Assembly (NCBI GenBank): GCA_030431755.1
Contig: JAUIIK010000023.1
Coordinates: 1-49,117, forward strand
Origin: Chloroflexia bacterium
GTDB taxonomy: Bacteria > Chloroflexota > Chloroflexia > Thermomicrobiales > CFX8
Reading direction: 5' to 3'
DNA: 49,117 bases
Part shown: piece after piece, positions 20,624 through 38,314 of the stretch
Position numbering within the stretch: position 1 is the stretch's first letter
Layout of the letters: each line of letters opens with the position of its first letter
The notes under the pieces: model-generated
Databases searched by the model: none
What the model was told of the DNA's origin: nothing
What the model saw: only the letters and a program-made list of their open reading frames with translations
Position numbers and translations under genes: made by a program

Positions 20624-20652
20624 TTGACCTTGCGGCAGTTCCCTGCTATCTT
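20624..20652 (+). promoter_or_regulatory. Promoter of the asd leader
   Basis: TTGACC (20624-20629) and TATCTT (20647-20652) are separated by 17 nt. The start is expected near 20659, giving a transcript that includes the leader peptide (20688), the terminator (20831-20856) and asd (20880). Confidence 0.65.
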
Positions 20653-20687
20653 CGACGGGATCAACCTGCCAGCCCGCAGTCTAAACG

Positions 20688-20798
20688 ATGGACGCGGCGC
20701 GGCGCACGAAAGCGAAGACGTTGGCGACACAGGGCCTCGCGATTACCACGACTATTACGACTACACCCGCCGGTTCGGCGCGGTGGAGGTCGGCTTAG
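20688..20798 (+). CDS. Thr/Ile-rich leader peptide of the asd attenuator
   Basis: This 36-codon open frame from ATG 20688 to TAG 20796-20798 contains Ile-Thr-Thr-Thr-Ile-Thr-Thr-Thr at codons 20742-20765. It resembles the run of Thr and Ile in the enterobacterial thr operon leader. The Thr codons vary (ACC, ACG, ACT, ACA), so the amino-acid run is not simply a DNA repeat. It lies between a near-consensus promoter and an intrinsic terminator, with asd as next gene. No strong ribosome binding site precedes ATG 20688; an in-frame TTG at 20721 would give a 25-residue version. The inferred role is that ribosome stalling on scarce threonyl- or isoleucyl-tRNA lets transcription continue into asd. 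An 84-codon frame also overlaps this stretch but lacks family features. Confidence 0.82.
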   Translation: MDAARRTKAKTLATQGLAITTTITTTPAGSARWRSA

Positions 20799-20831
20799 TC
20801 GCAGCCCTCAACACCGACGCACCGAACCGGC
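20769..20831 (+). promoter_or_regulatory. Long-range RNA stem (segments 2 and 3) of the asd attenuator
   Basis: GCCGGTTCGG (20769-20778) is perfectly complementary to CCGAACCGGC (20822-20831). Segment 2 begins one codon after the last Thr codon. It can instead form a local hairpin CGCCG-GTT-CGGCG (20768-20780). Segment 3 ends on the first base of the terminator's 5' arm. This supports switching between folds, but the exact antitermination pairing is not settled by eye. Confidence 0.65.
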
Positions 20832-20856
20832 AGGAGCGCCCCGCTCCTGTTTTTTT
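20831..20856 (+). terminator. Intrinsic terminator (attenuator) upstream of asd
   Basis: CAGGAGCG (20831-20838), loop CCC, CGCTCCTG (20842-20849), then seven T. It lies in the untranslated leader 23 nt before the asd ATG. The divergent hom gene cannot use it, so its only sensible role is premature termination of the asd transcript. Confidence 0.88.
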
Positions 20857-20879
20857 GTTGTCTGGAAGTGGAGATTGAC

Positions 20880-21941
20880 ATGGCAGAGAAGAAGCTCGAC
20901 GTCGCTGTCCTCGGCGCGACGGGCAGTGTAGGGCAGCGGTACGTCGAACTACTGGAGCATCACCCTACCCTCCAGCTTGCCGAGGTATTTGGAAGCGAAC
21001 GTAGCGCCGGGCGCAGCTACGGCGAAGCCTGCGACTGGCGCGTCAGCGCCGCGCCGCCGGAAGACCCCGCCAGGATGACCGTCAAGCACCCGGAGCAGCC
21101 GGTCGAGAGCCCGGTCGTCTTCTGCTCGTTGCCGGGCGGCATCGCCCGTGAAACCGAGCTGAAGCTCGCCTCCGACGGCCACTACGTCTTCTCAAACGCC
21201 AAAGACAACCGCATGGCGGACAACGTGCCGCTGATCATCCCCGAGGTCAACTGGCAGCACGCCGCGGCCATCGAGCGCCAGCAGAAAGAGCTCGGCTTCA
21301 AAGACGGCTTCGTCGTCACCAACCCCAACTGCTCGACGATCCACCTAGTCCTGGCGCTCAAGCCAATCTGGGACGCCTTCGGCATCGAGCGCTGCTTCGC
21401 GACGACGCTCCAGGCTACCTCCGGCGCGGGCTACCCCGGCGTCCCGTCGCTCGATCTGATCGACAACGTCGTGCCATACATCGGCGGCGAGGAGGAGAAG
21501 ATCGAGGAAGAGACCCTCAAGCTCTTGGGCGACTTCGACGGCGAGCGTTTCAACTTCGCCAAGCTGGGTGTGAGCGCGCAGTGCAACCGCGTGCCCGTCC
21601 GGCACGGTCACCTCGAAACGGCGAACCTGGAGCTCCGGTCGAAGGCGTCGCCGGCGGAGGTGATCGATGTGCTCCGCAACTTCCGCAGTCGGCCGCAGGA
21701 GCTGGGACTGCCGTCCGCGCCGCCCCAGCCGGTGATCGTCATGGACCAGCCGGACCGGCCGCAGCCGGCGCTCGACCGCGATGTCGCCAACGGCATGGCA
21801 TCAATCGTCGGTCGGGTGCGAGAATGCAACCTGCTCGACATCCGCATGGTCGTCCTCGGACACAACACCATTCGAGGCGCGGCCGGCGCGTCGATCTTGA
21901 ACGCCGAGATGCTCATGGCCGACGGCTACATGAGCGCCTAA
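20880..21941 (+). CDS. asd: Aspartate-semialdehyde dehydrogenase
   Basis: This enzyme makes L-aspartate semialdehyde from aspartyl phosphate with NADPH, the common step to lysine, threonine, isoleucine and methionine. The 353 residues show the Rossmann loop LGATGSVGQR (11-20), the nucleophile Cys151 in TNPNCSTIHL and SGAGYPGVPSLDLIDN. The later conserved His is in RVPVRHGH. The pattern fits the archaeal/fungal subfamily rather than the classical E. coli type. ATG 20880 is preferred over in-frame GTG 20868 because GTGGAG (20868-20873) then serves as ribosome binding site. The gene is preceded by a Thr/Ile attenuator. Confidence 0.94.
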   Translation: MAEKKLDVAVLGATGSVGQRYVELLEHHPTLQLAEVFGSERSAGRSYGEACDWRVSAAPPEDPARMTVKHPEQPVESPVVFCSLPGGIARETELKLASDGHYVFSNAKDNRMADNVPLIIPEVNWQHAAAIERQQKELGFKDGFVVTNPNCSTIHLVLALKPIWDAFGIERCFATTLQATSGAGYPGVPSLDLIDNVVPYIGGEEEKIEEETLKLLGDFDGERFNFAKLGVSAQCNRVPVRHGHLETANLELRSKASPAEVIDVLRNFRSRPQELGLPSAPPQPVIVMDQPDRPQPALDRDVANGMASIVGRVRECNLLDIRMVVLGHNTIRGAAGASILNAEMLMADGYMSA

Positions 21942-35381: not shown

Positions 35382-36053
35382 ATGTCGTGGTCCGCGAGCG
35401 TTGTTGTCAATCGCCGAAGTATAGCCGAGGGACTCTTGGAAGAACTGCGACCCTGGATCGGCAGCCCGCCCATCGTCGACCCGCCGGACATTCCCGGCTA
35501 CAAGCTCGTGCGCGGCGAGCAGCTCAGCATCGTGCGAGTCTCGCTGCTCGGCCTACTGCTCATGCCGATCTGGTTGATCATCTACAACTTCGGTGTGGTT
35601 GCGCTCGGCGGCGAGATGTCGGGGAGCTTTACGGTCTCGTTGCCGAATCTGATCATCGGCGTAACCTTCGCCATCGGCCTGATCGTCTTCCACGAGGCGC
35701 TTCACGGCGCCGGCGTGCTGCTGACCGGCAACCTGCCCTCCTTCGGCATCGGACCGGGCTTCGCCTATACGACCTGCCACAAGCCTCTGACCCGCAACGG
35801 CTATCTTCTCGTCATCGTCCTCCCGCTCCTCGTTATCAACATCGGCGCAATCATTCTCGGCGGGCTATTGCCCGGCGCCGTCGGCTGGATGCTCTTCATC
35901 TCGATCATCAACACAGCCGGGGCCGGTGGCGATGTCTGGATGCTCGTCCGGGTCATGCGCTTGCCGTCCGTCGCCCGCATTGTCGATCTGGCCAGCGGCT
36001 TCGCGGTCTACATGCCGGTTCAGGCGACGACGGCAAGCCCCATCGAGCCCTGA
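35382..36053 (+). CDS. DUF3267-like membrane metalloprotease-type protein
   Basis: This integral membrane protein of about 223 residues has four or five hydrophobic segments. It carries a zincin motif H-E-x-x-H at His104-Glu105-His108 (VFHEALHGAG) within a membrane helix, and a second conserved stretch, PGFAYTTCHKPLTRN. This pattern is found in DUF3267 proteins, which look like membrane metalloproteases but have no established substrate. The start is uncertain: ATG 35382 has no ribosome binding site, and an in-frame TTG near 35434 follows GAGGGA. Its end overlaps the convergent DAHP synthase gene by 34 nt. Confidence 0.72.
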   Translation: MSWSASVVVNRRSIAEGLLEELRPWIGSPPIVDPPDIPGYKLVRGEQLSIVRVSLLGLLLMPIWLIIYNFGVVALGGEMSGSFTVSLPNLIIGVTFAIGLIVFHEALHGAGVLLTGNLPSFGIGPGFAYTTCHKPLTRNGYLLVIVLPLLVINIGAIILGGLLPGAVGWMLFISIINTAGAGGDVWMLVRVMRLPSVARIVDLASGFAVYMPVQATTASPIEP

Positions 36054-37063
36054 ACCGCATCGCGCACGGCTGACACCGACGCCATCATCCGCTCCCAGGC
36101 GTCCAGGGTGATCGTCTGGTCGCCGTCACTGAGCGCGCTGTCCGGATCGGGGTGAATCTCGACCATCAGCCCATCCGCGCCGGCGGCAACGCCCGCCAGG
36201 GCCATCTGCGGGACCAGCTCGCGGATGCCGACACCGTGGCTCGGGTCAACGATGATCGGCAGGTGGGTCAGCTGTTTCACCAACGGCACCGCATTGAGAT
36301 CGAGTGTGAAGCGCGTCGATGTGTCGAAGGCGCGAATCCCACGCTCGCACAGCACCACCTGGTCATTGCCGCCGGCCAGGATGTACTCGGCCGACATCAG
36401 CCACTCGTTGACCGTCGCCGAGAAGCCGCGCTTGAGGAGGATCGGCTTGCCGCTGGTCGCAACTCGTCGCAAGAGCGGGAAGTTGGCCATATTGCGCGAT
36501 CCGATCTGGAGCATATCGGCATATTCGGCGATGAGCTCGACCTGCTCAGGCTCCATCACCTCGGTAACGATCGGCAGGCCGGTCTCTGCGCGTGCTTCGG
36601 CCAGAATCTGCAGGCCTTCCTCGCCAAGCCCCTGGAACGAGTATGGCGACGTGCGCGGCTTGAACGCGCCGCCGCGCAGCATCTGGCCGCCGTGGGCTCG
36701 CACCGCCCGGGCAACTTCGAGGGTAATCTCGCGATTCTCAACCGAGCACGTGCCCGACATGACCGTCAGGTCGCCCGCGCCGATCACGACCTGCGCGTCT
36801 TCGCCGACCGGCACGCGGCTGCCGGCCGGCCGCGCCGCGCGCTGGGCGAGCATGTAGGGCTGCATCGACCTGTTGGCCAGTGAAACGCCGTCGAGCCCGC
36901 CGATCTGGTCGATCAGCTCGTCCGAGACGCCCCGCCCCGTCGCGCCGATGACCGTCGGCCCTGCGCCGACCAGCGTATGCGTCTGGTAGCCGAACTCGCG
37001 CAGGTGCGAGATCACCCGCCCGACTTGTTCGTCAGTACACTCCGGAACCATCGTGACAATCAT
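36020..37063 (-). CDS. aroF: 3-deoxy-7-phosphoheptulonate (DAHP) synthase
   Basis: This enzyme catalyses the first step of the shikimate pathway, joining PEP and erythrose 4-phosphate. The 347 residues comprise an N-terminal ferredoxin-like regulatory domain (1 to about 70: MIVTMVPECTDEQ ... VIGATGR) and a class I-beta catalytic barrel. Barrel motifs are GTCSVENRE, LRGGAFKPRTSPYSFQG, QIGSRNMANFPLL, KPILLKRGFSAT and IIVDPSHGVG. This is the Thermotoga/Bacillus-type enzyme. ATG 37063 is preceded by a GGAAAGGGA stretch, as a ribosome binding site. The gene is controlled by an aromatic-amino-acid attenuator at 37097-37307. Confidence 0.94.
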   Translation of the reverse strand: MIVTMVPECTDEQVGRVISHLREFGYQTHTLVGAGPTVIGATGRGVSDELIDQIGGLDGVSLANRSMQPYMLAQRAARPAGSRVPVGEDAQVVIGAGDLTVMSGTCSVENREITLEVARAVRAHGGQMLRGGAFKPRTSPYSFQGLGEEGLQILAEARAETGLPIVTEVMEPEQVELIAEYADMLQIGSRNMANFPLLRRVATSGKPILLKRGFSATVNEWLMSAEYILAGGNDQVVLCERGIRAFDTSTRFTLDLNAVPLVKQLTHLPIIVDPSHGVGIRELVPQMALAGVAAGADGLMVEIHPDPDSALSDGDQTITLDAWERMMASVSAVRDAVQGSMGLAVVA

Positions 37064-37096
37064 CCGCTTGCGTCCCTTTCCGCCGACCCTTAAAAC

Positions 37097-37123
37097 AAAA
37101 AAGCAGAGGGCTGCTGCCTCTGC
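37097..37123 (-). terminator. Intrinsic terminator (attenuator) upstream of aroF
   Basis: On the minus strand, GCAGAGG (37123-37117), a 7-nt loop, CCTCTGC (37109-37103), then six T (37102-37097), G and four more T. It lies 33 nt before the aroF ATG with no completed gene between, so it terminates the leader transcript. Confidence 0.88.
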
Positions 37124-37197
37124 CTCCGGTACCGCCTTGCAACTGGTCGGATCGTCTAGGTCTCACACCCCAACGACCCCACCGGCGATACCGGAGG
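37123..37197 (-). promoter_or_regulatory. Long-range RNA stem (segments 2 and 3) of the aroF attenuator
   Basis: Segment 2 (37197-37184, minus strand CCTCCGGTATCGCC) pairs with segment 3 (37136-37123, GGCGGTACCGGAGG) over 14 positions, with one G-U. Segment 2 begins one codon after the last Phe codon. It can instead form a local hairpin (37200-37176) of nine pairs around one T-T mismatch. Segment 3 shares exactly one base (37123) with the terminator arm, the same arrangement as in the asd leader. Confidence 0.68.
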
Positions 37198-37272
37198 GGT
37201 AAAGTAAAAATAGAACCGCCAGCTCGCGCCGCGCTCTACCGCTACCTGTGATGTTCGACGATCCATAGTCAT
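37156..37272 (-). CDS. Phe/Tyr/Trp leader peptide of the aroF attenuator
   Basis: This 38-residue open frame from ATG 37272-37270 to TAG 37158-37156 includes Trp-Arg-Phe-Tyr-Phe-Tyr-Phe, codons 37221-37201 (TGG CGG TTC TAT TTT TAC TTT). A run of all three aromatic amino acids directly upstream of a terminator and of DAHP synthase is a textbook attenuation signal. The -10 box ends at 37279, which puts the transcription start on or next to the A of ATG, so the message is probably leaderless. No ribosome binding site precedes the ATG, in agreement. A second in-frame ATG lies at 37266. In the inferred model, shortage of charged Phe, Tyr or Trp tRNA stalls the ribosome and allows read-through into aroF. 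Confidence 0.87.
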   Translation of the reverse strand: MTMDRRTSQVAVERGASWRFYFYFTPPVSPVGSLGCET

Positions 37273-37278
37273 GCGGGC

Positions 37279-37307
37279 ATCCTATACGCGCTGGCCGAAT
37301 GTGTCAA
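37279..37307 (-). promoter_or_regulatory. Promoter of the aroF leader
   Basis: TTGACA (37307-37302), a 17-nt spacer and TAGGAT (37284-37279) on the minus strand. The -35 overlaps the last codons of the HPr-kinase-like gene. The start is expected at about 37272, the first base of the leader-peptide ATG. Confidence 0.8.
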
Positions 37308-38314
37308 CTTTCACAAAATTCGCGCAACACCTGCGCCGCAGCCAGCGGGTCCGGTCCAACCTCGAAGCGGTAGCTCCCGTGCTCGAGCATTGCGCCCCAG
37401 ATATCGACGTCACCCGACCGCCGCTGCTCGACCGCGATGCGTGTCGACTCGAAGAGTTCGAGCGCCTCCGCGTCCTCGATCCGGTGCAGGATATTGCGCC
37501 CTTCGGGCGAGCGTTCCACGAAGACTGTCGGTCCAAGCGGCGCGCGTTGCACGGTCTGACCAGGGAAAGCCTCGCCCACATGCGTCAAGATCTTCTGCTC
37601 GCCGTTGTACCGATCCAGCGGCTCCGACCCGTCCAGCTCGGGAAAGAAGCGCACGGCGTCCGGCTTCAGGTAGAGCAACCACGGCAAGCCACGCAGCTCA
37701 ATCGTTCCCGCATGTACGAAAGCGAAGGCGACATCTTCACAGAGCAGGGAGAAACCCTGGCGTAGCGCCGCATATCCAAGCGTCGTCTTGCCGGCGTTCG
37801 GCTTCCCGCGCAACATCACCGTCCGCCCGTTGTGCGACACCGCCGCGCAATGGATCGCCGAGAGCGAGCGGTTCGTCAGCGTCCAGAGCACTGGCGATTG
37901 GACCAGCGTCGAGCGCAGGTGCTCGCTATGCCCCGCTTGCTTGTCGGAGATGAAGCCGAAGGCAAAGCCGGCGCGGATGCTACCGGAGACGACGGACGCG
38001 CGGCTCGCGGCCACGTAGAAGTAATCATCCTGGCCGCGCAACACAGGTTGCATCGGTGTCCAGGCCGGATCCTCGGGAACGTCATGCACCAGCAGCCGGA
38101 GCGTGATCTCGTGGGATTCCAGCGCCTCCTCTCCACGCGGACCGAAGGCCTCGCGCGCGACGGCTTCGACGCGGTCGTCGTTCGTTTCGATGGTGAGCGG
38201 GAAGCCAAGCGCTTCAAGCTCGAGCCTGCGGTCGGGCAGCGCGCCCTGCATCACGGGATCGGCGGCTGGCTGCTGCTCGGACACCGTCTGATTGCGGAAT
38301 TCAACCGTCGACAT
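37304..38314 (-). CDS. HPr kinase-like P-loop protein in a sugar ABC operon
   Basis: This 336-residue protein has a C-terminal domain resembling the HPr kinase/phosphorylase fold: Walker A GKPNAGKT (170-177) within AAVSHNGRTVMLRG and TTLGYAALRQG, followed by LLCEDVAFAFV (Glu193-Asp194). The N-terminal 140 residues are unrecognised. Proteins of this type occur as HprK-related kinases outside the phosphotransferase system, often with unknown targets. It lies 4 nt downstream of the permease gene in a solute-binding-protein/permease operon, with no HPr or PTS gene in the window. It may phosphorylate a transport or regulatory partner, but that is inference. Confidence 0.65.
   Translation of the reverse strand: MSTVEFRNQTVSEQQPAADPVMQGALPDRRLELEALGFPLTIETNDDRVEAVAREAFGPRGEEALESHEITLRLLVHDVPEDPAWTPMQPVLRGQDDYFYVAASRASVVSGSIRAGFAFGFISDKQAGHSEHLRSTLVQSPVLWTLTNRSLSAIHCAAVSHNGRTVMLRGKPNAGKTTLGYAALRQGFSLLCEDVAFAFVHAGTIELRGLPWLLYLKPDAVRFFPELDGSEPLDRYNGEQKILTHVGEAFPGQTVQRAPLGPTVFVERSPEGRNILHRIEDAEALELFESTRIAVEQRRSGDVDIWGAMLEHGSYRFEVGPDPLAAAQVLREFCES

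Follow-up and report, generated by a model that had tools for sequence, protein, structure and literature searches.

A probable leaderless leader-peptide attenuator with aromatic control codons upstream of a DAHP synthase gene in Thermomicrobiales

What controls transcription of aroF, the type I-beta DAHP synthase gene, in this stretch of Chloroflexia DNA (the window, meaning the whole 49,117 nucleotides analysed)? The initial annotation proposed an attenuator with aromatic control codons, and every detail that it gave is present on the minus strand, in the order TTGACA, 17 nt, TAGGAT, 6 nt, a 38-codon ORF with the stretch WRFYFYF, a 14-position stem, a 7-bp terminator with its U-tract, and aroF. 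Absent from it were a competing hairpin (H1), a phylum-wide RNA family and a sister attenuator that lies before asd within the window. We favor, at a probability of about 0.75, a ribosome-mediated transcription attenuator that is probably leaderless and has a long-range helix (1:3) which would serve as the antiterminator. Its parts are as follows.

37302..37307, minus strand: -35 element TTGACA, kept in 41/41 leaders
37279..37284, minus strand: -10 element TAGGAT after a 17-nt spacer; predicted transcript start at or beside 37272
37156..37272, minus strand: leader peptide ORF, 38 codons, MTMDRRTSQVAVERGASWRFYFYFTPPVSPVGSLGCET and stop; first ATG 6 nt past the -10 element, no SD sequence
37201..37221, minus strand: control codons W-R-F-Y-F-Y-F, the final Phe codon ending 3 nt before arm 1
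37177..37199, minus strand: H1 (1:2), local hairpin CCCC-U-CCGGU-AUC-GCCGG-U-GGGG, the proposed anti-antiterminator, with fixed-distance pairing in relatives
37184..37197, minus strand: arm 1 of the antiterminator, CCTCCGGTATCGCC, encoding P-P-V-S-P
37149..37179, minus strand: H2, a hairpin nested within 1:3 that contains the leader stop codon, predicted in most relatives
37123..37136, minus strand: arm 3 of the antiterminator, GGCGGTACCGGAGG; G37123 is common to arm 3 and the terminator
37092..37123, minus strand: intrinsic terminator GCAGAGG-cagcagC-CCTCTGC, with a 7-bp stem (37123-37103) and U-tract TTTTTTGTTTT (37102-37092; T6GT4)
36020..37063, minus strand: aroF, type I-beta DAHP synthase, the regulated gene (NCBIfam PRK08673 and TIGR01361, above cut-off)

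The A of the ATG at 37272 is the seventh base after the -10 element, the ORF ends with TAG at 37158-37156, and CCTCCGGTATCGCC and GGCGGTACCGGAGG form 14 paired positions, one of them G-U. This arrangement is not due to chance. Of 85,693 stop-free 7-residue stretches in a six-frame reading of the window, WRFYFYF alone has six or more aromatics, the promoter is unique in 601 bases (0.1 expected), and the segment folds with a z-score of -4.56, beating all 200 shuffles. The gene upstream (37304-38314, minus strand) has a weak, below cut-off match to HprK-related kinase A, and its stop codon is part of the attenuator's -35 element.

Orthologous aroF leaders (n=41) were recovered from four families of Thermomicrobiales. 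In these, a cluster of Trp, Phe and Tyr codons followed by T/S/N-PPA..VG lies 160-310 nt upstream of aroF, with all three kinds of codon within 10 codons before PP in 41/41, and a TTGAC[A/T]-17/18-TANNNT promoter is found in every leader. The first in-frame ATG falls 6-10 nt past the -10 element in 38/41, and an SD sequence before the ATG is absent in all 38. The near-leaderless layout is thus not an accident of the window, and conservation argues for the ORF, its codons and the promoter spacing. One leader (L007, G001:C457) has the promoter, aromatic codons and RNA helices and no in-frame ATG near the promoter, which points either to a start of an unusual kind or to an error in the assembly. 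No aromatic leader lies upstream of the second DAHP synthase gene of the same genome (contig C9, L002).

In a genome survey, a TA-like signal about 10 bp upstream of the start was taken most probably to mark leaderless genes (PMC3160421). The -10 element is about that close or closer here, at 6 nt in the window and 6-10 nt in the 38 relatives. We infer that translation of the aroF leader ORF probably begins on a leaderless mRNA. The claim that a 5′ leader is missing altogether holds in part: its near-absence is conserved, and the transcript start itself is predicted from promoter spacing. A true attenuator with a leadered transcript, starting further upstream or using the second ATG two codons on (codon 3) after a short untranslated region, is unlikely, though it deserves some weight. 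The ATG lies 9-10 nt after the -10 element in 20 relatives, which would allow a leader of 2-3 nt, and the Ktedonobacter-type leaders discussed below appear to have leaders of some tens of nt; against this stand the missing SD sequence and, in the window, a single strong promoter with the ATG 6 nt beyond it.

We determined how well the proposed helices are supported by comparison among relatives. Arm 1 can pair either with the adjacent region 2, forming H1, or with the distant arm 3. A covariance model was built from 26 leaders and applied to 74 matches, from which 70 distinct sequences were counted. In these, 94.0% of positions in 1:3 and the terminator were standard pairs, as opposed to 81.0% (sd 0.6) in shuffles and 34-51% in slid versions, and there were 181 both-side changes versus 56 in shuffles, although such counts lean towards the model structure because the alignment is fitted to it. 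An independent, unfitted MAFFT alignment gave compensatory changes at 9 of 20 pairs. The terminator stem carries compensatory changes, one pair being AU in 48 sequences and CG in 22. H1 was counted at fixed distance without alignment, with arms swapped between species as the control; 86.3% of its positions were paired, compared with 80.2% (sd 0.9) for swapped arms and 38-58% for slid versions. Its covariation is modest because H1 is so conserved. Taken together, covariation argues for 1:3, the terminator and their juxtaposition, as the initial annotation had proposed for the stem and terminator, and lends weaker support to the competing H1.

The position of the control codons is consistent with a switch operated by the ribosome. 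The last Phe or Tyr control codon ends 1 nt before the lower half of H1, and masking the 5 nt that would lie under a ribosome at that codon halves the predicted stability of H1, from -16.1 to -7.8 kcal/mol. The distance from PP to the stop codon is 39 nt in 32/41 leaders, a spacing that would place a terminating ribosome just downstream of H1. An ORF with codons for the products of the pathway lies between promoter and gene, an intrinsic terminator lies between that ORF and the gene, and 1:2 and 1:3 share arm 1 beside the control codons, both being conserved. Counting against the model, arm 1 would itself lose its first few bases to a ribosome standing on the final control codon.

In the proposed mechanism, RNA polymerase would start on the leader AUG or no more than a few bases from it, and the ORF would be translated without a leader. 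When charged tRNA-Phe and tRNA-Tyr (perhaps also tRNA-Trp) are plentiful, the ribosome would reach the leader stop codon, arm 1 would fold into H1 behind it, and arm 3 would be left single-stranded; the terminator would then close and transcription would end before aroF. Under shortage of an aromatic amino acid, the ribosome would stall on the Phe/Tyr codons and H1 could not close. Arm 1 would pair instead with arm 3, forming a helix that ends at or inside the terminator base and would keep the terminator from closing, so that aroF is transcribed. The cell would probably thereby make DAHP synthase only when Phe, Tyr or Trp runs short.

The direction of this switch depends on how 1:3 meets the terminator. 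The two are directly adjacent (0 nt apart) in 29/41 leaders and 0-2 nt apart in 41/41; helix 1:3 thus mostly touches the terminator and does not reach deeply into it, which is unusual for an antiterminator. On inspection of the leaders, no classical antiterminator, in which sequence upstream of arm 1 sequesters the 5′ arm of the terminator, was found. In most aroF leaders, equilibrium folds contain the terminator whether or not 1:3 is formed, and exclusion must therefore be kinetic or steric; constrained folds retain the terminator at every ribosome position, and with the ribosome at the stop codon equilibrium folds still favor 1:3 over H1 in most relatives. The terminator base would be buried well inside the RNA exit channel, and a rigid helix set directly against its 5′ side there would impede closure. 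In Thermomicrobium-type asd leaders 1:3 and the terminator overlap by 5 nt; there the two are mutually exclusive and 1:3 is plainly an antiterminator.

The same geometry admits a reversal of roles, in which 1:3 stacks on the terminator and aids it, and a stalled ribosome raises read-through by covering arm 1. The equilibrium folds place the two helices end to end in all 41 leaders, as suits coaxial stacking, and a ribosome stalled at the last control codon would reach far enough to cover the beginning of arm 1. We consider this improbable. The predicted terminator alone is strong (-13 to -21 kcal/mol) and hardly needs support; when it folds freely it shares 1-6 nt with arm 3 in 32/41 leaders, and this overlap, like the 5 nt of the asd leaders, would weaken it; and the conserved H1 would be left without an evident role. 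We infer that 1:3 probably acts as the antiterminator.

Which amino acids would be sensed is a separate matter. In the window, 18 nt separate the Trp codon from the last Phe codon downstream of it; a ribosome stalled on the Trp codon would therefore not cover the switching region, leaving the whole switch exposed. PMC11802643 reports that the Corynebacterium glutamicum aroR leader has a Tyr codon, yet that Tyr limitation is without effect. Sensing of all three aromatic amino acids, which the initial annotation had put forward, thus stands as regards the constant presence of Phe, Trp and Tyr codons and is unproven as regards their action, for Trp above all.

The conserved residues after the control codons reflect the RNA rather than the peptide. 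All 41 leaders have G as the third base of codon +3, although the residue encoded there may be L, S, V, W or E, and the third positions of codons +1, +4 and +5 are nearly fixed; this codon pattern attributes the conserved PPALLVG to RNA constraint. Arrest by the nascent peptide, in which the polyproline motif F-T-PPALLVG would itself stall the ribosome and control aroF, was rejected on this codon-position variation as very improbable: PPA..VG is kept across the order, but third codon positions vary as little as the others, or even less, Ktedonobacter-type leaders stop directly after PPA, and asd leaders have PAG instead. A T-box or other RNA-only sensor with an incidental ORF can be dismissed, since the GGCGGUACCGGAG stretch of arm 3 in the window, which we take to recall a T-box core superficially, varies freely along with arm 1 in relatives, the ORF with its aromatic codons is kept in 41/41 leaders, and a search of 4227 Rfam families, including RF00513 (Trp_leader), gave no match in the window (E<=10) or in four relatives (E<=1), which likewise rejects the known amino-acid leaders.

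The comparison with relatives that had been suggested extends beyond the order, as the RNA is found across Chloroflexota. With the covariance model, the element was detected in 48/301 genomes sampled across the phylum (E <= 0.001) and in 52/158 genomes of the class; the phylum-wide loci examined in detail sit before aroF, and in the source genome the model picked up a single copy (E<=1). Weak model matches inside coding genes (L187, L188, L193, L194, L196, L197) were discarded. Ktedonobacter-like leaders (L206, L209, L211, L212, L216, L218, L220-L222, L224) end just after the control codons, as in FYYWFSPPA-stop, and their stop codon falls in the H1 loop. This natural variant of the switch suggests a different layout with the same outcome, in which the terminating ribosome itself would cover arm 1 in place of its folding into H1.

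The scaffold also occurs before other genes. It precedes pheST in four genomes of one genus (L182-L185; leader MGARRGQYQCTVCISHHVHFSPPALPVGHAVLAR and stop), a pyruvate,phosphate-dikinase-like gene, which would supply PEP (L186; aromatic leader MRRRAAAPTISMHGFGSGLSAESYSYVFTSYYAGPAMLEVPLSH and stop), and asd, with Thr-rich leaders such as MVTTTTPAGVRAGSAT and stop (L191, L192, L195, L270, L271, L275). A promoter-anchored scan of ilvB loci gave no comparable leader. Within the window, a sister attenuator with the same scaffold lies before the aspartate-semialdehyde dehydrogenase gene (asd, ATG at 20880; surrounding region 20624-20880).

20688-20856, plus strand: sister attenuator before asd
20688-20798, plus strand: asd leader ORF, MDAARRTKAKTLATQGLAITTTITTTPAGSARWRSA and stop, with Thr/Ile codons
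20769-20778 with 20822-20831, plus strand: asd 1:3, GCCGGTTCGG/CCGAACCGGC, with one base common with the terminator
20831-20849 plus T7, plus strand: asd terminator, with the same one-base overlap with 1:3 as before aroF

The asd leader in the window is not leaderless-looking, because with its promoter (TTGACC-17-TATCTT) the 5′ leader would be about 30 nt long.

In other phyla, too, genes of the same DAHP synthase family were seen to have short aromatic-rich ORFs upstream, e.g. FFGFFWYGFYFQPSARARVYAV and GFYFYFFGEVRPGALT (each with its stop), and strong hairpins often come after these ORFs.

Geobacter and relatives: L105, L119, L138, L139
Rokubacteria: L085, L087, L097, L101, L108, L111-L113, L118, L123
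Acidobacteria and relatives: L080, L086, L094

DAHP synthase may be under aromatic attenuation far more widely than has been reported. As a tentative and wider proposal, the Chloroflexota attenuators could form a phylum-wide modular group in which an abutting antiterminator sterically blocks hairpin closure in the RNA polymerase exit channel, with a leaderless Phe/Tyr/Trp leader before aroF and the scaffold re-used before asd, pheST and the pyruvate,phosphate-dikinase-like gene. The element would be a deep, unannotated RNA family controlling entry to aromatic amino acid synthesis in Chloroflexota. Its natural variation suits direct tests of the abutting antiterminator, of three-amino-acid integration and of attenuation from leaderless mRNAs, and the covariance model gives annotators a handle on leader peptides missed by gene finders.

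Leader-peptide attenuation had been described chiefly in Proteobacteria, Actinobacteria and some Firmicutes (PMC2965389), and no report of it in Chloroflexota was found in the literature searched. The trp, pheA, thr and ilv attenuators of Escherichia coli share control codons, alternative hairpins and an intrinsic terminator with the leaders described here. It is classical for one attenuator to combine codons for several amino acids (ilv, thr), and the E. coli thr leader uses Thr and Ile codons, as does the asd leader of the window. Unlike the E. coli systems, which have SD-led leaders and a 2:3 antiterminator overlapping the 5′ arm of the terminator, the Chloroflexota aroF element has arm 1 inside the ORF after the control codons, pairing with 2 or 3, and arm 3 mostly only touches the terminator.

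Closer parallels in layout come from Actinobacteria. The attenuators studied by Neshat and colleagues in 2014 are reportedly leaderless transcripts, and we know of no counterpart in C. glutamicum aroR to the Chloroflexota RNA with its 1:2 and 1:3 helices and a terminator abutting 1:3. Streptomyces ilvL, trpL and leuL are leaderless leader-peptide attenuators (PMC8079986); citing articles also describe mycobacterial polycysteine leaderless ORFs (Canestrari 2020, cited in PMC9031893) and a C. glutamicum ilvBNC leader without an RBS (Morbach 2000, cited in PMC4046766). These share with the aroF leaders an ORF at the 5′ end of the transcript without an RBS, control codons and attenuation, but differ in amino acids, genes and RNA structures; the aroF leaders keep their spacing through one order, their leaderless layout being read from sequence only. 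In C. glutamicum aroR, a Phe-Tyr-Phe leader precedes the DAHP synthase gene aroF, and read-through rises on Phe, not Tyr, limitation (Neshat et al. 2014, as relayed in PMC11802643 and PMC4046766). This provides a precedent for both the F-Y-F leader and the direction of the switch, although it concerns another phylum, those accounts report no Trp codon, and the parallel is drawn by function, from the papers alone. Leaderless attenuators are known in Corynebacterium, Streptomyces and mycobacteria, and a leader linked to DAHP synthase in C. glutamicum, so that neither feature is new in kind, and the novelty first claimed for this locus was overstated, given the Actinobacterial leaders and the multi-amino-acid attenuators above. 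What is new, as far as the literature searched and Rfam show, is the phylum, the RNA scaffold with an abutting antiterminator, the constancy of all three aromatic codons in the order, and the re-use of the scaffold with other codons.
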